Assembly (NCBI RefSeq): GCF_001904745.1 | Contig: NZ_MRCD01000003.1 | Location: 1 to 64,000, forward strand | Source of the DNA: Calothrix sp. HK-06 | GTDB taxonomy: Bacteria > Cyanobacteriota > Cyanobacteriia > Cyanobacteriales > Nostocaceae | Reading direction: 5' to 3' | DNA: 64,000 nt | Shown here: positions 33,351 to 41,726 of the stretch, piece by piece | How positions within the stretch are numbered: position 1 is the stretch's first letter | Layout: the number at the start of each line of letters is the position of its first letter | Position numbers and translations under genes: made by a program | Notes under the pieces: model-generated | What the model was told of the DNA's origin: nothing | The model's input: only the letters and a program-made list of their open reading frames with translations | Databases searched by the model: none

Positions 33351-34196
33351 ATGAGTATATCTAGTTCTTTCACAGATTTTTCTTTAGCTGAACTATTTCA
33401 GTTGATTGACCAAGGAAAAAAGTCAGGTTGTTTGACGGTTTGTACTTTACCTAACCTGAAAGTTATTGGCTCAAAATCGCAGCACTACTATATCTGGTTT
33501 CGACAAGGAAATGTAGTTGCAGCGACAAGTAAATTAAATGGACTTGGGTTAGTCGAAAAGATTGTGCAGCGAGGTTGGGTAAACGAACGTACATTAAAAA
33601 GACTTCGTTTGCAAGCAGCAACAGATACACCTTTAGGTTTATATCTCAAAACTTTAGAAATTTTAAACGCAGAGCAGTTAAACTTGTTGTTTGCAAGTCA
33701 GTTACAGCAAGTTAGGCAGTTATTTGAAATCCAAAAGGGTGTTTTTAAGCTCGATAGTAAAGCAATGTTACCTACGAGCGAAATGACTGGGATAAGTTTA
33801 CGCGCGACAGAAGTAGCTTTAATGGCTTTGCGAGTAATTAAAAATTGGGCAGCTTTGGCTGATGCTCTACCCAACCCGACTTCGGCAATCGAAGGAATTA
33901 CACCCGCTAAAACCCAACTCCATCTGCATCCCCTCGAATGGCAGTTATGGGAATTTGCTGATGGAAATGTTAGTTTAAACACACTTGCATCTCAACTTAA
34001 CCAACCAATTACTACTATCCAGCAAGTTGCTTTCCGATTGATGGTTGCTGGTTTAGTGGAAGAAATTCCATTATCATCGCATTCACTGAGCTTTGATGGT
34101 TATATGTCCACTTACAGTCCTCAAAAGTCTCAACCGTTAAAGGTAAGTACTTCGTTTTTACAAAATCTAGTTGGTTTTCTGAAGAGTAAGGCTTAA
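33351..34196 (+). CDS. DUF4388 (PATAN-like) protein
   Basis: About 281 residues. The N-terminal domain (about 1-110: SFTDFSLAELFQLIDQGKKS, GCLTV, YYIWFRQGNVVAAT) is DUF4388, found in PatA-type and motility regulators. The rest is helical with a winged-helix-like ending (LNTLASQLNQPITTIQQVAFRLM). ATG at 33351 starts at the conserved domain; the frame extends to a weaker TTG at 33318. It precedes the first GTPase gene by 20 bases and is likely its upstream partner. Confidence 0.75.
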   Translation: MSISSSFTDFSLAELFQLIDQGKKSGCLTVCTLPNLKVIGSKSQHYYIWFRQGNVVAATSKLNGLGLVEKIVQRGWVNERTLKRLRLQAATDTPLGLYLKTLEILNAEQLNLLFASQLQQVRQLFEIQKGVFKLDSKAMLPTSEMTGISLRATEVALMALRVIKNWAALADALPNPTSAIEGITPAKTQLHLHPLEWQLWEFADGNVSLNTLASQLNQPITTIQQVAFRLMVAGLVEEIPLSSHSLSFDGYMSTYSPQKSQPLKVSTSFLQNLVGFLKSKA

Positions 34197-34216
34197 AACT
34201 CTATAAATTCACTGTT

Positions 34217-34753
34217 ATGGAAATTCTACGGATTGTAGTCACAGGAAGTGTTGGTGCGGGAAAAACAAGTTTCATTCGCACTATTAGCGAAATAGATGTT
34301 GTTGACACCGATAAGCGTGCAACTGATGAAATGGCAGAAATTAAAGCTAACACTACTGTAGCTTTAGACTTCGGGCGCCTAACAATCAGCCCCAAACAAT
34401 CGCTTCACTTATACGGTACACCCGGACAAGCGCGGTTTGATTTTATGTGGGATATTTTAATTCAGAAAGCCCATGCTTATATTTTATTAATTGATGCCCA
34501 CCGTCCTGAACATTTTCGCCACAACCGTAAAATTCTTCAGTTTTTTAAAAAAAGAGTAGATATACCTTATTTAATTGGCATAACACATTCTGACTGTGAA
34601 GGCGCCTGGGAAGCGTCGGATATTGCCCTGAGTTTGGGAATGGTAGACGAACAACCACCCATTGTAACTGTTAACGCAACAGAAACAACATCAGTCCGAG
34701 AAAGTTTAATTAATGTTGTTGAGCTATTGGCAAATTGCTATCAACATCATTAG
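34217..34753 (+). CDS. Small Ras-like GTPase, copy 1
   Basis: 178 residues. P-loop GSVGAGKTSF (about 10-19), switch II GTPGQARF, and a G4-like THSD in IGITHSDCEG. It resembles the bacterial MglA/Rab-like GTPases associated with Roadblock proteins. It lies between DUF4388 and a Roadblock/LC7 gene, which in MglA/MglB systems acts as GTPase activator. A second paralogue lies at 36528. A polarity or signalling switch is inferred. Confidence 0.85.
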   Translation: MEILRIVVTGSVGAGKTSFIRTISEIDVVDTDKRATDEMAEIKANTTVALDFGRLTISPKQSLHLYGTPGQARFDFMWDILIQKAHAYILLIDAHRPEHFRHNRKILQFFKKRVDIPYLIGITHSDCEGAWEASDIALSLGMVDEQPPIVTVNATETTSVRESLINVVELLANCYQHH

Positions 34754-34929
34754 TACAAAAAATCATTGAAAAACAAATTGTAATATATAGCACATTCATT
34801 ATTATTTCTTAAAGTATTTTTCACCTTAATATTGTTGAGTTTTGCTCACTATATCGAGATAATACTGCTAATGTATATGTGGTGATAAAAACATCGGATT
34901 CAGCACAAAAAATCAGTACATAAACCGCT

Positions 34930-35496
34930 ATGGCTTTAGGCAGAATCCTGAAGCTACTCATGGGTGGGTTTCAGCAGTCTCCATCTTCCATTTTGCCGGA
35001 GCCGCAGAACACCGAGTCTGACATCAAATCAGACGAAGTAGAAGCAACTGTTATTCCAACTTCAGCCATTGAGTTACAATCGCTTGATTTAACAGCTATT
35101 GAATTACCAACTTCTCTAGGACAAGACATGATTAATATTTCGATGTTGCAACAAGAGTTGCAAAACTTTGTCACAGGCGCCTCAGATGTTCAAGGTGCTG
35201 CACTAGTAAGTCCAGATGGTCTTGCCTTAGCATCAGTACTTCCTGGTGGAATGGATGAAGAACGAACTGCCGCCATGTCAGCTTCAATGCTGTCGCTTGG
35301 TGAGAGAATTGGGCGTGAGCTAGCACGCGGAAACGTTGAACGTATTGTAGTTGAAGGCGAAAAAGGTTACGGTGTTTTAATTGGATGCGGTAGTGAGGCT
35401 GTATTACTAGTGCTAGCAGGCGCCGCAGTCAAACAAGGAATTTTATTTTTGGAACTCAAACGGGTGGTGGCAAGAATTGCCCCTTTGTTGGCATAA
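34930..35496 (+). CDS. Roadblock/LC7 protein, copy 1, with N-terminal extension
   Basis: 188 residues. A Glu/Ser-rich extension of about 65 residues precedes a Roadblock/LC7 domain starting at DMINISMLQQELQNF. Key segments are GAALVSPDGLALASVLP, MDEERTAAMSASMLSLGERI, and ERIVVEGEKGYGVLIGCG. It is nearly identical over about 120 residues to copy 2 at 37058. Roadblock dimers serve as GTPase-activating partners of MglA-type GTPases. The extension is absent from copy 2. Confidence 0.87.
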   Translation: MALGRILKLLMGGFQQSPSSILPEPQNTESDIKSDEVEATVIPTSAIELQSLDLTAIELPTSLGQDMINISMLQQELQNFVTGASDVQGAALVSPDGLALASVLPGGMDEERTAAMSASMLSLGERIGRELARGNVERIVVEGEKGYGVLIGCGSEAVLLVLAGAAVKQGILFLELKRVVARIAPLLA

Positions 35497-35647
35497 TTAA
35501 CAATCCTTACTCAGATGCTTGGATTACTGAGTTTAAGTGATAGTGACGCCCGCATAAAAATATTAAAGCATTATCAGAGGGAAGCATCGAATAATTTAAA
35601 GCACACAAACAATTTATTTTGATTAGTAGTCAGGAGTTTATAACATC

Positions 35648-36205
35648 ATGGCCTTAGACCCACATGTCTTTATGTCCACCCTTGAAAAGCGCGTTGGCTT
35701 AACGGATGCTGACAAAGCTTTATTAAAATCTGAGGCAGAGTGGGGTGCAAAATTAGCTCCAGAAATGGCCGGCCACTTTTATGCTTATCTTGGACGTGAC
35801 TCAGAAATGAACGACATACTTAATGGTGATGGCAACGGACGAGTCCATCGTTTACATGAAACCTTCGTTAACTGGTTCCAAGAAATGTTTACAGGTATGG
35901 ACGGATGGGGTAATGCATACGCAGACCGTCGTTGGAGAATTGGTTTAGTTCACGTCCGTCTTGGTATTGGACCCCAGCATGTCGTTCCAGCAATGGCAAC
36001 AGTTGTACACGAAGTTGGCAAACATCTCAAAGCTGATGGTAAAACCGAAGAACTCAAAGACGCGCTAGGAAGAATTTGTATGATTGATTTAGCATTTATC
36101 GAACAAGCATATGTGGAAGTCTCTTCCTCCGCAGTCCTTCAAGAAACTGGTTGGAGCGAAGGTTTGTTCAGACGCTTAATTGCTACTGGCGCCAAATCAA
36201 TGTAA
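35648..36205 (+). CDS. Single-domain protoglobin / sensor globin
   Basis: 185 residues, a globin-coupled-sensor globin without an output domain. RIGLVHVRLGIGPQHVVPAM carries the proximal haem ligand His102. The distal side has HFYAYLGR (Tyr45, Tyr47), as in HemAT-like sensors that bind oxygen through Tyr. It sits between two GTPase/Roadblock pairs, so it may feed oxygen, NO or CO status to them. A simple gas store cannot be excluded. Confidence 0.87.
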   Translation: MALDPHVFMSTLEKRVGLTDADKALLKSEAEWGAKLAPEMAGHFYAYLGRDSEMNDILNGDGNGRVHRLHETFVNWFQEMFTGMDGWGNAYADRRWRIGLVHVRLGIGPQHVVPAMATVVHEVGKHLKADGKTEELKDALGRICMIDLAFIEQAYVEVSSSAVLQETGWSEGLFRRLIATGAKSM

Positions 36206-36459
36206 TATCTACTTTCATCCCCCACAAGGGGGATATATGCAATAACTCTTTGGAAAGATGTATCACAAGATGCTAGTAAATTGTCGGAATATATATAAAT
36301 ATTTATCTATATATAAGTAAATATCTAGCAAATATAAGTAATATAAAACAAGGGTAAAGGCTTTAAAAGATAGATATTATATACACACTATATTTGTGTA
36401 AGCAGGATGTATTTGCCAATGTAGTAAATAATGCAAGCTATAAAAATTAAGGGAGTTTA
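36206..36459. other. AT-rich gap before second GTPase
   Basis: About 250 bases, AT-rich, no clear gene. A promoter for the second GTPase run is likely here because the globin gene ends well upstream. Confidence 0.4.
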
Positions 36460-36531
36460 ATGTTTTCAAGTCAATTCGCTGTGGCTAAAAGTTTACAGGC
36501 GCTAAGTTCACAGTCTAATCAAAATAGATGA
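36460..36531 (+). CDS. 23-residue leader ORF coupled to GTPase
   Basis: ATG 36460 is preceded by AAGGGAG and opens a 23-codon frame (MFSSQFAVAKSLQALSSQSN, then QNR). Its TGA overlaps the ATG of the next gene as ATGA, a layout typical of translational coupling. The peptide resembles nothing I know. It may be a leader that sets GTPase expression or a relic of a longer protein. Confidence 0.45.
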   Translation: MFSSQFAVAKSLQALSSQSNQNR

Positions 36532-37028
36532 GAATTTTACGTATTGTAGTTACGGGTAATGTAGGTGCTGGAAAAACAACCTTTATCCGCACAATTAGCG
36601 ATACCGATGTCATCGATACTGATAAAAAAGCTACTGATGAGACTGCTAAACTCAAACCAAAAACAACGGTAGCAATGGACTTTGGTACTTTAGCGCTATC
36701 TAACAAAGATTTATTGCATCTGTATGGTACACCGGGACAAGCTCGGTTTGAATTTATGCGAGATATTCTAATAGAAAATGCGACTGCTTGTGTTGTACTA
36801 GCAAATGCAACTCGCAAAGCTGACTTATTATATGCACGTGCGGTAGTTGAACTTATTGATGAGCAATTGCAAATTCCATATATAGTTGGACTGACGCATA
36901 CAGATTTGCCTTCTCAACAATTATCAGATATTTCTGCTTTAGAAGCAAAGGCACCCATAACTCTAGTCAACGTTACCGACCGAATTTCAATCAAGACGGT
37001 GCTAACCAAATTATTAGAGCAATTGTAA
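36528..37028 (+). CDS. Small Ras-like GTPase, copy 2
   Basis: 166 residues with P-loop GNVGAGKTTF, GTPGQARF and LTHTDLP. About half its residues match copy 1, chiefly the N-terminal 85. It is followed after 29 bases by a Roadblock gene and then V4R, so these three form one run. Copies 1 and 2 probably arose from duplication of a GTPase-Roadblock pair. Confidence 0.87.
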   Translation: MRILRIVVTGNVGAGKTTFIRTISDTDVIDTDKKATDETAKLKPKTTVAMDFGTLALSNKDLLHLYGTPGQARFEFMRDILIENATACVVLANATRKADLLYARAVVELIDEQLQIPYIVGLTHTDLPSQQLSDISALEAKAPITLVNVTDRISIKTVLTKLLEQL

Positions 37029-37057
37029 TAACAAATAAATCGTGTGGGAGGATAACC

Positions 37058-37426
37058 ATGATTAATACTTCAATGTTACAAGATGAAATACAAAACTTTG
37101 TTACTGGTGCATCGGATGTTCAAGGTGCAGCATTAGTAACTCCAGATGGTTTAGCACTTGCATCAGTACTACCAGGGCCAATGGATGAAGAACGCACAGC
37201 AGCAATGTCAGCGTCAATGCTTTCGCTTGGTGAACGCATTGGACGCGAACTCGCACGTGGTAGCGTTGAACGTATCGTAGTCGAAGGTGAAAAAGGTTAC
37301 GGTGTGTTAGTTGGTTGCGGTCAGGATGCCGTACTACTCGTGCTTGCTGGTGCAGGAGTCAAGCAAGGTATTTTATTTTTAGAAATCAAGCGAATTATTA
37401 GTAGATTGGCGCCATTAATTGGATAA
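37058..37426 (+). CDS. Roadblock/LC7 protein, copy 2
   Basis: 122 residues, only the Roadblock/LC7 domain (MINTSMLQDEIQNFVTGASD to the C-terminus). It matches copy 1 at most positions over its whole length. ATG 37058 has GGGAGGA upstream. It is likely the regulatory partner of the GTPase at 36528. Confidence 0.88.
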   Translation: MINTSMLQDEIQNFVTGASDVQGAALVTPDGLALASVLPGPMDEERTAAMSASMLSLGERIGRELARGSVERIVVEGEKGYGVLVGCGQDAVLLVLAGAGVKQGILFLEIKRIISRLAPLIG

Positions 37427-37450
37427 CAAATTTTTATAGGAGTCTTAACA

Positions 37451-37912
37451 ATGTTACGTCCTAATTTGGGTGATTTTAGCAGTATTGTTTGCTTTAAAGC
37501 TGCGATTGTGGGAATGGAAGATGCTTTAGGAGATAAAGCAACCGCAATTGCTCTAACAACAGCAGGTCGTAGTCGCGGTAGACAGCTTGCAAATGAACTT
37601 GGTTTAACTGGTTCAATGATGTCGCTTGATGATATCGCTTACAAACTTGGTTATGCCTTGGGTAAAAACGGTACATGTTTATGTAGCGTAGAAAAAATTG
37701 TTTCCGAAGGTGATGTCATTAAAGTCTACACCAGCGAAACTTTATGTTCAGCAGGAGAACCCCAAGGTTCTGAACGTAAATGTACATATACTCTTGGGGC
37801 TGTTTGGGGTGCCTTAGAACAAACTCTCAGCAAACGCTTACAAGGTAAACACACCGAGTCAGTGCTACGTGGTGGCACTCATGATGTATTTGAATTTACT
37901 AAATTCAAATAA
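37451..37912 (+). CDS. V4R-domain small-molecule-binding protein
   Basis: 153 residues. The C-terminal half fits the V4R (vinyl-4-reductase) domain: TCLCSVEKIVSEGDVIKVY, LCSAGEPQGSERKCTYTLGA, WGALEQTL and a HTESVLRGGTHDVFEF end. V4R domains bind hydrophobic ligands and, through Cys, metal in some cases. It follows the second Roadblock gene by 24 bases and is the last gene of the module. It may supply a ligand signal to the GTPase unit. Confidence 0.7.
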   Translation: MLRPNLGDFSSIVCFKAAIVGMEDALGDKATAIALTTAGRSRGRQLANELGLTGSMMSLDDIAYKLGYALGKNGTCLCSVEKIVSEGDVIKVYTSETLCSAGEPQGSERKCTYTLGAVWGALEQTLSKRLQGKHTESVLRGGTHDVFEFTKFK

Positions 37913-37916
37913 ACTA

Positions 37917-37993
37917 GGCAACGGATGATGAACAGATGTAACGGATGGGTAATTTTAAATAACTCATCCGTTACATCCGTTACATCCGTTGCC
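37917..37993. terminator. Long hairpin between convergent genes
   Basis: GGCAACGGATGATG and AGATGTAACGGATGGGT face ACTCATCCGTTACATCC and GTTACATCCGTTGCC. The element fills the whole 80 bases between the V4R stop and the stop of the minus-strand gene, so it serves both as terminator. It is the ATCCGTTAC repeat family. Confidence 0.7.
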
Positions 37994-38397
37994 TAAAGCA
38001 CAACAGGCGCCGTTTCCCATATTTCACCATACTCATCACGCAAAGCTTGCCAAGCTTCAACTTGTCCAGGTTCATATTCTCCTGGTTTGCCCCATTGTAA
38101 AAATAAACTCAATGCTGACTCTTGCTTCTCATCTAAAAATCTAATTGCGTAGGTTGTAAAGTTACCACGCTTCGCTTCACCTGTTTCAAACTTTACTTGC
38201 TTAATTAAGTCCATATTCAAATGAAACTCAAAACCTTCGGTGTGCATATTCGCGTATTTGCCCTTCGCCAACTCCGCATAGAATATTTTTTCGACTTTTC
38301 CGCGCGCTTCTAATACTGCGGCACTACTGGTAACAATTAAACGCAAAGTACCTAAGCTCTCACAAGCTTCCAAAAACTCTTTTAAGGGTTTAGCCAT
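37993..38397 (-). CDS. HutX/ChuX-like haem-utilisation fold protein
   Basis: 134 residues. Segments TLRLIVTSSAAVLEARGKVE, GFEFHLNMDLIKQVKFETGE, and ALSLFLQWGKPGEYEPGQVE follow the pattern of HemS/ChuX haem-carrier domains, but the match is faint. It is convergent with the globin-GTPase module, which fits haem use only loosely. It could equally be a conserved cyanobacterial protein of other function. Confidence 0.45.
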   Translation of the reverse strand: MAKPLKEFLEACESLGTLRLIVTSSAAVLEARGKVEKIFYAELAKGKYANMHTEGFEFHLNMDLIKQVKFETGEAKRGNFTTYAIRFLDEKQESALSLFLQWGKPGEYEPGQVEAWQALRDEYGEIWETAPVVL

Positions 38398-38537: not shown

Positions 38538-40025
38538 ATGGCAGATCAACTTTTAACTGATGCGAACCAAAAGCTGCACGACCGTTACATCGTAATTAGA
38601 AAAATCGCAGAAAACGGAGGCCGACGCACGCTGCTTGCGTTAGACTCTCATCATGGAAACGAAGTAGTCATTAAAATTCTGTTATTTAATGAAGAATTTC
38701 GCTGGGAAGATTTAAAATTATTTGAAAGAGAAGCAGAAACGCTTAAGCATCTGTCGCACCCAGCAATTCCTCAGTACCTTGATTATTTTGAGCTAGATAC
38801 ACCTGAAATCAAAGGATTTGCGCTAGTACAGACTTATTGCAACGCAAAATCGCTTCAAGAATATATAGACACAGGGCGAAATTTTAGCGAGTTAGAAATA
38901 ATTCAATTAAGTAAATTATTATTGGGGATATTGCATTATTTACATTCACGACACCCAGCAGTTATTCATCGCGACATCAAACCCAGTAACATCTTACTCA
39001 ATAATACTTCTGGTAATAGTGTTGGGGATGTATATTTAGTTGATTTTGGTTCTGTACAGACCAGTATTAAAGCACGTGGGACCAGGACTGTAGTTGGAAC
39101 TTATGGCTACATGCCACTTGAACAGTTTGGTGGAAGAGCTTTTCCTGGGTCTGATTTATATAGTTTGGGAATGACGTTAATTTACTTAGCTACCAGAAAA
39201 CACCCCTCTGAATTACTAGGTGATGATTTAAATATTAAATTTGAGCAAATACGAGATATCAGTGCTGAGTTAAAAGCTTGGTTGAATATTATGATACAAC
39301 CTAGTGTTAATCGTCGTTTTGACTCAACAACCGCAGCATTACAAGCTCTAGATAATTTATCTAATATACTATCAAATGATGAATATAATTTGTACTACAG
39401 AGATATTCATTCCTCAAAAATAAAAAAACCATTATCTAGCAAAATAAAAATAAAGAAAACCAGAAATAAGTTAGAAATTATATTTCCAACAAAAACAATA
39501 AAGCAAATTATTGGTAATATACTCGGTGCAATAATACCAAGTGCAATTATATTATATGTAGGATATTATGTATTGTTTTACCCCACTAAATATCTAATTG
39601 AATTTTTACTACAAATATTTATAATTAATTACATAGTCATATTTTTATGCACTTCGCTGGTTTTATTTCTAAGCTCATGTGTACTAATTAACTTATTCGG
39701 CAGAACAAAACTATTAATTGACGAAAAGCGTTTAATCATAACAACAGAGGTATTTGGCAGTCAAGCATTAGCAGGCGCCCCGCGAAGAATTATTGCTCTT
39801 AGGCATATCTGGAAGCTAGTATCCAGCGCACAAGAATATAAATTAATTAACTTAAAAAATGATATTGAAAAAATAGTAAAATCCCCAAGTTTAATTATAT
39901 GGGAAGGTACATTTAGCAATCATGATTTGAGTCAATATTTAAATCAACCTTTAACCTTACAAGAACGCGATTGGTTAGCGCAAGAAATTAGCGACTTTTT
40001 GGATATACAGATAATTCAAGAGTAA
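38538..40025 (+). CDS. Ser/Thr protein kinase with membrane tail, copy 1
   Basis: 495 residues. The kinase domain (about 10-275) has Lys in VVIKILL, HRDIKPSN, DFGSVQ and GTYGYMPLEQ. The Gly loop is weak (IAENGGRRTLLA). Two transmembrane helices lie at about 325-375, then a beta-rich tail with no known domain. It is a tandem paralogue of the next gene; the 120-base gap holds a tandem repeat. Confidence 0.87.
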   Translation: MADQLLTDANQKLHDRYIVIRKIAENGGRRTLLALDSHHGNEVVIKILLFNEEFRWEDLKLFEREAETLKHLSHPAIPQYLDYFELDTPEIKGFALVQTYCNAKSLQEYIDTGRNFSELEIIQLSKLLLGILHYLHSRHPAVIHRDIKPSNILLNNTSGNSVGDVYLVDFGSVQTSIKARGTRTVVGTYGYMPLEQFGGRAFPGSDLYSLGMTLIYLATRKHPSELLGDDLNIKFEQIRDISAELKAWLNIMIQPSVNRRFDSTTAALQALDNLSNILSNDEYNLYYRDIHSSKIKKPLSSKIKIKKTRNKLEIIFPTKTIKQIIGNILGAIIPSAIILYVGYYVLFYPTKYLIEFLLQIFIINYIVIFLCTSLVLFLSSCVLINLFGRTKLLIDEKRLIITTEVFGSQALAGAPRRIIALRHIWKLVSSAQEYKLINLKNDIEKIVKSPSLIIWEGTFSNHDLSQYLNQPLTLQERDWLAQEISDFLDIQIIQE

Positions 40026-40141
40026 GAAACCAGGTTTCTCGTGACTAAGTATAAATAATTTTGATATTAACGAACAGAAACCTGGTTTTTTTTGACTAGA
40101 TATGAATAATTTCGATATTAACAAACAGAAACCAGATTTAT
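40026..40141 (+). repeat. Tandem repeat of about 56 bp between kinase genes
   Basis: A unit beginning GAAACC(A/T)GGTTT, then TGACTA, AATAATTT, GATATTAAC and AACA, runs twice, and its start recurs a third time before the next gene. The GAAACC(A/T)GGTTTC palindrome also occurs at 47281-47298 and 47337-47350 and in a changed form near base 25. The repeat flanks the second kinase gene's start. Confidence 0.75.
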
Positions 40142-40145
40142 AAAT

Positions 40146-41726
40146 ATGACAAAACTTCCAAAAGAATTATTTAACAATCGCTACCAAATTCAAGAAGAAT
40201 TAGGACGTAACACTGGGCGCCGTACCTTTTTAGCCCAAGATTTAGAAACTAAACAACTAGTAGTAATTAAACTACTAATATTTAACGATAATTTTCGTTG
40301 GGATGATTTAAAGTTATTTGAGCGCGAAGTGGAAACACTCAAATCTTTATCACATCCAGCAATCCCTAAATATATCGAGTACTTTAGCGTTGATATACCT
40401 AGCATAAAAGGATTTGCATTTGTACAAAGTTATATAAATGCTCGACCTTTACAAGAATATTTAGACAGTGGTCGAACATTTAGTGAAAGCGAAGTTAAAC
40501 AGTTAGCAAAATCTTTATTGTTAGTATTAGATTATCTTCACTCACACCAACCACCCGTTATTCATCGAGATATTAAACCAAGTAATATTCTATTAGTTAA
40601 TCGCTCTGCCCATTATATAGGTGATGTTTACTTAGTTGATTTTGGCTCAGTGCAAACCGCAACTCCTCATGATGGAACCATGACTATAGTTGGCACTTAC
40701 GGTTATATGGCGCCGGAGCAATTTGCTAGTAAAGTATCTTATGCCTCCGATTTATATAGTTTAGGAGCAACGTTAATTCATTTAGTAACAGGTATCGAAC
40801 CAATCGATTTACCTTCATCTAATTTACAAATTGAATTTGAAGAAACTGTAAATATTAGTTCTACATTTAGAGACTGGCTTAAGTTAATGACTCATCCCAG
40901 TCTCAGCAAGCGGTTTAATTCGGTACAATCTGCTAATACAGCTTTAGAATCTGGTGAATTAACCATCAAAAAGCCACCCTTGACTAATATTACCCTTAAA
41001 AAAACAGCAGATTGTATCAATATTTGTATCCCTTATGGCTCATTTGAATCTACAAAAAAATCTTATCGACAAGTTGTTAACAATATCAAAAGAGATTATC
41101 GGCAAGCTTGGTATGGAAAAATCTTTGATATTGTTAGTCTTCGTGGTTTTTGGACATGGTTAATTTGTATTTTAATTTGTTCAGTTGTAGCAATAATATG
41201 TGTTGGACTTCCAATCATAGCATTCTTGATGGTATTGCCAGAATCGATACGCTACCTATTTATATTTTTAGCTGCTGGCTCTGTAATTATGTCCCTAACA
41301 ACTCCAAATTTATCTTTTAATATTAAAGATTTTTATAAAGCTACCATACCTGATGAGAAGATTAGATTCGACATAAAAAATTTAAGATATGTAGACGCAT
41401 TACATCTAAACATCAATCAGCAAGATGTAACATTAGCATTTACTTATCCCAGTCAAGCTCAAACAACAGAAAATTATATTATTTTTAAACAGCCTCGACA
41501 AAACATTTCTAAAATAATTTTTGAAAACAAGAGTTATAAAATAATTCAAACTGGAACCGATGAGAATGGTAAAAAGCAAACAGAACAGAAAGAAATACCA
41601 CCTCGCTTATATATACAGGTAGCTCAAAAAAGATATGGATTAAATTATAAGCTCACGGCGCCAGAACTTTACTGGTTAGCAGAAGAACTTAGCTATTTTT
41701 TAGATATACCCATCACTTGGGAGTAA
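40146..41726 (+). CDS. Ser/Thr protein kinase with membrane tail, copy 2
   Basis: 526 residues. Gly loop LGRNTGRRTFLA, Lys in VVIKLLI, HRDIKPSN, DFGSVQ, GTYGYMAPEQ. About 300-400 holds three hydrophobic segments and about 400-520 a beta-rich domain. The kinase half closely matches copy 1; the tails diverge. The two kinases probably arose by tandem duplication. Confidence 0.88.
   Translation: MTKLPKELFNNRYQIQEELGRNTGRRTFLAQDLETKQLVVIKLLIFNDNFRWDDLKLFEREVETLKSLSHPAIPKYIEYFSVDIPSIKGFAFVQSYINARPLQEYLDSGRTFSESEVKQLAKSLLLVLDYLHSHQPPVIHRDIKPSNILLVNRSAHYIGDVYLVDFGSVQTATPHDGTMTIVGTYGYMAPEQFASKVSYASDLYSLGATLIHLVTGIEPIDLPSSNLQIEFEETVNISSTFRDWLKLMTHPSLSKRFNSVQSANTALESGELTIKKPPLTNITLKKTADCINICIPYGSFESTKKSYRQVVNNIKRDYRQAWYGKIFDIVSLRGFWTWLICILICSVVAIICVGLPIIAFLMVLPESIRYLFIFLAAGSVIMSLTTPNLSFNIKDFYKATIPDEKIRFDIKNLRYVDALHLNINQQDVTLAFTYPSQAQTTENYIIFKQPRQNISKIIFENKSYKIIQTGTDENGKKQTEQKEIPPRLYIQVAQKRYGLNYKLTAPELYWLAEELSYFLDIPITWE

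Follow-up and report, generated by a model that had tools for sequence, protein, structure and literature searches.

The window analysed here is a stretch of 64,000 nucleotides from the filamentous cyanobacterium Calothrix sp. HK-06 (contig NZ_MRCD01000003.1), and our subject is a cassette on its + strand that encodes small Ras-like GTPases and Roadblock proteins together with a globin, a V4R-fold protein and a DUF4388 (PATAN-type) protein. The DUF4388 protein comes first (281 aa, 33351..34196; PF14332 E 4.3e-24), followed by GTPase 1, an MglA/CvnD-like small GTPase (178 aa, 34217..34753; Ras and Roc both score above cut-off), Roadblock 1 (188 aa, extended at its N terminus, 34930..35496; Robl_LC7 E 9.8e-18) and a protoglobin-family single-domain sensor globin (185 aa, 35648..36205; PF11563 E 3.9e-20). 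A diverged second copy of the GTPase (GTPase 2, 166 aa, 36528..37028), Roadblock 2 (122 aa, 37058..37426; Robl_LC7 E 4.7e-17) and the V4R-fold protein (153 aa, 37451..37912) complete the run. A module with a duplicated GTPase-Roadblock pair, a globin and a V4R protein had been proposed from a sequence-only reading of the window, and our analysis confirms that it is real.

Conservation in cyanobacteria and on Deinococcota plasmids

The V4R-fold protein has 158 relatives in the genome-contig collection, and the V4R loci analysed here are the best 80 of these 158. Neighbourhood counts use the 54 loci with at least 4.5 kb on each side (26 of the 80, with <4.5 kb on a side, were dropped): within 6 kb of V4R a Roadblock gene was found in 51, a GTPase in 48, DUF4388 in 46 and a globin in 28, and none of the 80 loci had any of these four on the opposite strand relative to V4R. 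Counted by genome, V4R relatives are present in 16 of 292 cyanobacterial genomes, where 10 hold them with a Roadblock, 4 alone and 1 as a broken copy only, the remaining genome (G245) having V4R with only a globin and a shortened DUF4388 open reading frame (ORF). Gene order around V4R falls into 29 patterns (truncated contigs counted). Writing V for V4R, R for Roadblock, G for GTPase, P for DUF4388 and H for globin, these include V-R-G-P (13 loci), P-G-R-V (11), R-G-P-V-H (6), V-R-G-P-H (5) and V alone (5), and the window order of P-G-R-H-G-R-V occurs at 4. That the gene content survives so many reorderings points to joint function.

Seen from the Roadblock side, a close match (E <= 1e-50) is present in 25 of the 292 genomes, and its cluster holds the GTPase in 25/25, DUF4388 in 25/25, the globin in 24/25 and V4R in 10/25. 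The globin is therefore a core component of the cyanobacterial cassette and V4R an addition to it. Co-occurrence in cyanobacterial genomes gave a Fisher p of 7e-33, uncorrected for kinship; this test excluded 12 genomes whose Robl match lay between E 6e-11 and 2e-4, the fused globins of G004 and G041 and a globin fragment (G103), and included the diverged globin of G054 (E 3e-16). The proposal that globin and V4R are kept with the GTPase-Roadblock pair thus holds far above chance in cyanobacteria, with the qualification that the two sensors differ in standing. Nine clusters (L189-L193, L195-L198) read globin-Roadblock-GTPase-DUF4388 without V4R, and in four of them, all Thermosynechococcus-type cassettes (L189, L190, L191 and L193), the DUF4388 gene is followed or overlapped by a hemerythrin gene (8544-8954 in L189 and 8569-9036 in L193), so that a second O2-type protein closes the cassette; the remaining 122 of 126 loci retrieved, a set in which some overlap, showed no hemerythrin. 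Labelling a tree of 92 GTPases by the presence or absence of V4R or globin gave at least 7-8 switches across well-supported branches; a gene at any position in a retrieved locus was counted for its label, so contig ends may add changes.

The cassette recurs on Deinococcota plasmids, for which we examined 13 of the 14 Thermus/Deinococcus records matching GTPase 1 (CP058541.1 was left out). All seven full-length V4R matches in the plasmid collection were in Deinococcus, at 53-56% identity, and at all seven loci a hypothetical protein, GTPase, Roadblock and V4R lie in one run. DUF4388-GTPase occurs on four Thermus plasmids, accompanied by between one and three protoglobins: two have DUF4388-GTPase-Roadblock-protoglobin in the same order as the window, and a third places the Roadblock amid three protoglobins. 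A tblastn search of the plasmids with the window globin found nothing at 1e-5; the Thermus protoglobins are annotated in these same cassettes and Pfam confirms them, and the three that we aligned are 20-22% identical to the window globin and retain its Tyr45, Thr72 and His102. Given this recurrence and the co-conservation with the pair in cyanobacteria, it is reasonable to infer an input by gas or small molecules, as had been suggested earlier.

DUF4388 likewise belongs inside the cassette across cyanobacteria and Deinococcota. Pfam DUF4388 matches the window protein and two Thermus proteins, and among six Deinococcus candidates it appears in two, at best E 0.17. The hypothetical protein of Deinococcus can be aligned along most of its length to the DUF4388 protein of cyanobacteria and has a similar basic tail, and the profile comparison gave E 1.7e-4 at 50% probability (controls at least 0.19), weakening to E 0.0068 with a 10-row alignment. 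The initial emphasis on globin and V4R with the GTPase-Roadblock pair has been changed accordingly, the DUF4388 protein being the likeliest output of the cassette.

The duplicated GTPase-Roadblock pair

In most GTPases the position at issue in the G3 motif is Asp. Our GTPases, whose likeness to CvnD we take to be one of motif, keep an intact P-loop and the G3 motif GTPGQ in 104 of 104 relatives. Aligned with KRas DTAGQ, this motif has Gly (again in 104/104) at the position given as Thr78 of MglA in the covered part of PMC3000849, which makes the GTPase MglA-like and not MglA proper.

The sequence-only reading had described the module as a duplicated one; we rejected the duplication as a defining feature, since single-pair cassettes are the rule among relatives. 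A second GTPase and second Roadblock are also present in the nearest Calothrix-group relatives (L031-L033, L035), whereas Calothrix PCC 7103 (L034) has a broken GTPase 2. GTPase 2 is 52% identical to GTPase 1, its nonsynonymous divergence (dN) from L035 is about 3-fold higher (0.131 versus 0.041; the L034 value was excluded, as it really belongs to the paralogous GTPase 1 of that locus), and its branch is long in a tree that holds the copies of the four relatives above without the window's own. Each of the cassette genes is under purifying selection, with ratios of dN to synonymous divergence of about 0.07 to 0.41 against close relatives. Roadblock 1 begins with a helix, MALGRILKLLMGGFQQ (34930..34977; hydrophobic moment 0.56), that is a possible membrane or partner anchor and is preserved in 7 relatives (L031-L037), the linker behind it being variable. 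Because Roadblock 2 has no such helix, the two Roadblocks may act at different places.

Between the globin and GTPase 2 genes lie two smaller features. Directly 3' of the globin gene, after its stop, is a strong hairpin (36217..36234; -12.9 kcal/mol, z -3.3) with a perfect 7-bp GC-rich stem and no T-run downstream; L031 preserves the stem with a different loop, and the hairpin may be an RNA end or processing site. Our promoter and terminator scan returned only chance-level signal. A leader ORF (36460..36531) overlaps the start of GTPase 2 via ATGA. It is intact in L031 and L032, 17 residues long in L035 and absent from L033, L034 having been omitted because its GTPase 2 is broken. We accordingly found no support for the leader ORF as a conserved gene: it is weakly kept among these four relatives with no sign of a functional peptide, and perhaps serves translational coupling with GTPase 2.

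The sensors, the DUF4388 protein and flanking genes

The window globin matches PDB 8h17 at E 6e-98, and the globin of L189 is identical to that structure (Tlr1989) over 184 residues; we take the Tlr prefix to denote T. elongatus BP-1. Window residues Tyr45, Thr72 and His102 align with HemAT Tyr70, Thr95 and His123, which we take to be the functional haem-pocket residues. After removal of 2 fused proteins of another type from 67 cyanobacterial globin ORFs, Tyr and His are found in 65/65 and Thr in 64/65 (pattern misses were read by eye). On these residues the predicted haem pocket is of the O2 type. The protein accordingly shares family and haem-pocket Tyr, Thr and His with the HemAT-type globin-coupled sensors, including the proximal His and distal Tyr/Thr, but its 185 aa hold the protoglobin domain only and no fused output, its likely partner being a separate GTPase switch.

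Assignment of the V4R/Bet3 fold, which the window protein shows, is settled by structure and not by sequence. Its nearest folds are transcription-regulator sensor domains, and it shares the fold and glycine doublets with the V4R domains of MopR/PoxR and with TRAPPC3/Bet3 (the doublets are described in the covered part of PMC2253512). These GxxxG doublets, one placed in helix 2 and the other in the last helix, are invariant in 13/13 sequences, and regular-expression patterns for them match 102/107 and 91/107. Pfam V4R gave no match to the window protein at 0.1, and among 10 members it matched only one (E 0.045), with no match above cut-off; PF02830 found no match in the window's own genome, and searching PDB by sequence gave no relative with E below 0.14. 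Against canonical cyanobacterial V4R profiles the set scored E 0.43 with fragments included, worse than controls, and after 7 of the 20 rows were dropped as short it reached E 0.0055 at 7% probability (controls at least 0.068); the global mode of this comparison yielded nothing. In contrast to MopR/PoxR and TRAPPC3/Bet3, the cassette protein is free-standing, too diverged for Pfam V4R and encoded with a GTPase switch.

Canonical Pfam V4R, usually two per genome, occurs in 50 of 285 cyanobacterial genomes, none of the 50 in the window's own family, where the V4R-fold protein is more frequent. The PAP operon (slr0144-0152) was rejected as the system, its canonical V4R family being that of these 50 genomes and not of our own. 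Two Brasilonema clusters (L069, L071) hold 3 V4R and 2 Roadblock genes each (G-V-R-P-V-R-V), two of the V4R copies scoring lower, and G070 has a broken V4R with stops on contig 107 near 14000 (L030), an 18-kb contig on which no other cassette gene was found.

The DUF4388 protein ends in a tail, STSFLQNLVGFLKSKA (34146..34193), that is a probable amphipathic basic helix. It is aligned in 10/10 alignment rows and has comparable counterparts in Deinococcus and Thermus; a loose tail pattern matches 73 of 103 and misses 30, and the hydrophobic moment is 0.31 in the window, 0.43 in L018 and 0.73 in Deinococcus.

Several kinds of gene flank the cassettes. A histidine kinase and LuxR-type regulator lie upstream in 10 of the 80 V4R loci, on the same strand (L046, L048-L050, L054, L063, L067, L079, L082, L089; HisKA_3 and LuxR-type response regulator called by Pfam on one representative each). 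Downstream in the window, at 38538-41726, we identified by eye two tandem Ser/Thr protein kinase-like genes, whose cluster is present in 7 of the 80. On the plasmids an EAL-domain gene directly follows the cassette in 3 of 4 Thermus cases (domains checked for one), EAL or HD-GYP genes following it in Thermus L249, L251 and L252 and in Deinococcus L222 and L225, which hints at an output through cyclic di-GMP (c-di-GMP).

A sensor-gated switch and its alternatives

MglA/MglB and the Streptomyces conservons, to which the module had been likened, are the right comparisons. As in MglA/MglB of Myxococcus and Thermus, a small Ras-like GTPase is encoded with a Roadblock/LC7 protein, in one cluster in all 25 close-Roadblock genomes; the cassette differs in its added globin, V4R and DUF4388 genes and in the Gly of GTPGQ. 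In the sections of PMC4316618 covered, Cyanobacteria and Deinococcus/Thermus are among the members of MglA Group 5, and PATAN genes are sometimes neighbours of Groups 1 and 5; gene neighbourhoods within Group 5 are described as widely variable, and neither globin nor V4R is mentioned. The likeness of our cassette to Group 5 consists in the common phyla and PATAN neighbours. To the conservons (CvnA-D) the cassette is linked by a Roadblock whose profile matches CvnB5 (PDB 3leq, E 4e-13) and by a related GTPase, at 32-38% identity to the actinobacterial matches listed. A conservon is, however, a histidine kinase-Roadblock-DUF742-GTPase set (cf. L250), whereas the window cassette has neither kinase nor DUF742 and instead has soluble sensors and DUF4388. 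With the G3 Thr and the kinase-DUF742 set both absent, the cassette is by gene content a variant of the MglA/MglB-conservon kind, neither MglA nor conservon proper. HGbRL of Methylacidiphilum also couples a globin to a Roadblock/LC7 domain, but as a single fused protein whose globin groups with the flavohaemoglobin type, with no DUF4388 or V4R in the passages of PMC4476040 covered. Novelty therefore stands for the combination, as no separate-gene GTPase-Roadblock cassette with globin or V4R was found in the covered portions of the open-licence literature searched; it does not extend to PATAN genes near MglA and MglB homologues (PMC4316618) or to the globin-Roadblock fusion (PMC4476040), both of which are in print.

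What we observe is the gene content, its co-conservation and recurrence across phyla, the haem-pocket residues, a V4R-like fold and intact GTPase motifs; from these we infer the physical contacts, ligand, direction of control and output set out here. We favour, with somewhat better than even confidence, a sensor-gated small-GTPase switch. Its constant core would be the MglA/CvnD-like GTPase, the Roadblock and the DUF4388 (PATAN-type) protein, into which exchangeable soluble sensors would plug, here the single-domain O2-type globin and the V4R-fold protein with a putative pocket for hydrophobic or aromatic ligands. The globin would relay its ligand state (O2, or possibly NO or CO) by binding directly to the Roadblock dimer, as would V4R, or else either sensor might contact the GTPase itself; binding would alter how the Roadblock sets the GTPase between GTP and GDP, and the GTP form would engage the DUF4388 protein as effector, tethered by its C-terminal helix at the membrane or a partner. 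Published precedents, as far as the covered passages go, lend support: the Roadblock protein MglB acts on the GTPase MglA, the authors of HGbRL propose signal relay from the fused globin to its Roadblock domain (PMC4476040), and Synechocystis PATAN-REC proteins interact with the pilus motor PilB1 (PMC9090330). By analogy with the latter the cyanobacterial output is probably control of surface motility or type IV pili, which we hold less firmly than the switch itself, and in Thermus/Deinococcus it is probably c-di-GMP turnover.

A number of observations weigh against this switch. The intergenic gaps of 176, 151 and 322 bp, together with the hairpin, poorly fit a single tight operon. V4R stands alone in 5 of the best 80 loci (L091 and L104 with full flanks) and also in L023, L026, L029 and L213, and a lone globin is found in 6 genomes that also hold a clustered copy, so that each can act without the GTPase-Roadblock pair. 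The cassette of G091 has no globin, the Thr is missing from the diverged L199 globin, one Thermus locus has a globin with no Roadblock annotated, and two Deinococcus plasmid cassettes have the first three genes only and neither sensor. Finally, PATAN-REC proteins carry a receiver domain that the window DUF4388 protein lacks, which leaves the pilus output an analogy.

The best surviving alternative, though we think it unlikely, is a transcription switch in which a winged-helix half of the DUF4388 protein binds DNA under control of the GTPase-Roadblock pair with globin/V4R input, with precedent in MopR and PoxR, where a V4R domain controls transcription. The C-terminal half of the window protein gives weak TrmB/HTH_47 winged-helix matches at E 0.02-0.03, five of the six Deinococcus members match HTH_20 (E 7e-4 at best), the conservon DUF742 gene occupies a comparable place, and the nearest folds of V4R point the same way; however, all helix-turn-helix matches with known cut-offs fall below them, and winged helices are also common as protein-binding parts. 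Less probable still is that globin and V4R serve detoxification or haem/hydrophobe metabolism and lie beside the GTPase pair only for the sake of expression. Lone globins exist, enzymatic activities have been reported for protoglobins elsewhere (covered part of PMC4020757), and a ChuX/HutX-like haem-carrier gene, the convergent neighbour in the window (37993..38397, - strand; PF06228 E 7e-11), is near 23 of the best 80 V4R loci. That gene, however, mostly travels with wider PhoH and SRP54 synteny, so that we found no support for it as a system part and it probably does not belong to the cassette; gene content stays constant through many reorderings, and in Thermus at 20-22% globin identity, and 10 annotated neighbour-cluster representatives include no haem/hydrophobe metabolism enzyme. 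That V4R is a TRAPPC3-like GTPase partner in nucleotide exchange or assembly, and not a ligand sensor, is very improbable; its likeness to TRAPPC3 in this respect is one of fold.

A broader generalization of the sensor-gated switch, which we regard as doubtful, would be a class of GTPase switches, spread over several phyla, in which soluble sensors encoded as separate proteins and open to exchange gate the GTPase. O2 would act via globin, in some cases via hemerythrin, and V4R would bring in a hydrophobic or aromatic ligand, working on the GTPase in a TRAPPC3-like manner (cf. eukaryotic Rab exchange factors); if true, oxygen would control directly which nucleotide a bacterial Ras-like protein holds. 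To our knowledge few direct inputs to bacterial Ras-like switches have been identified, and the cassette suggests a little-known bacterial route coupling oxygen to a GTPase switch. It gives PDB 8h17 (Tlr1989) a gene context, the Thermosynechococcus and Thermus cassettes offer small thermostable proteins for reconstitution, and a V4R/Bet3-fold protein beside a Ras-like GTPase and Roadblock bears on the possible origin of TRAPP-like exchange factors. An O2-type globin with a GTPase-Roadblock-DUF4388 core in both Cyanobacteria and Thermus is, in this sense, a concrete and testable case of gas input.

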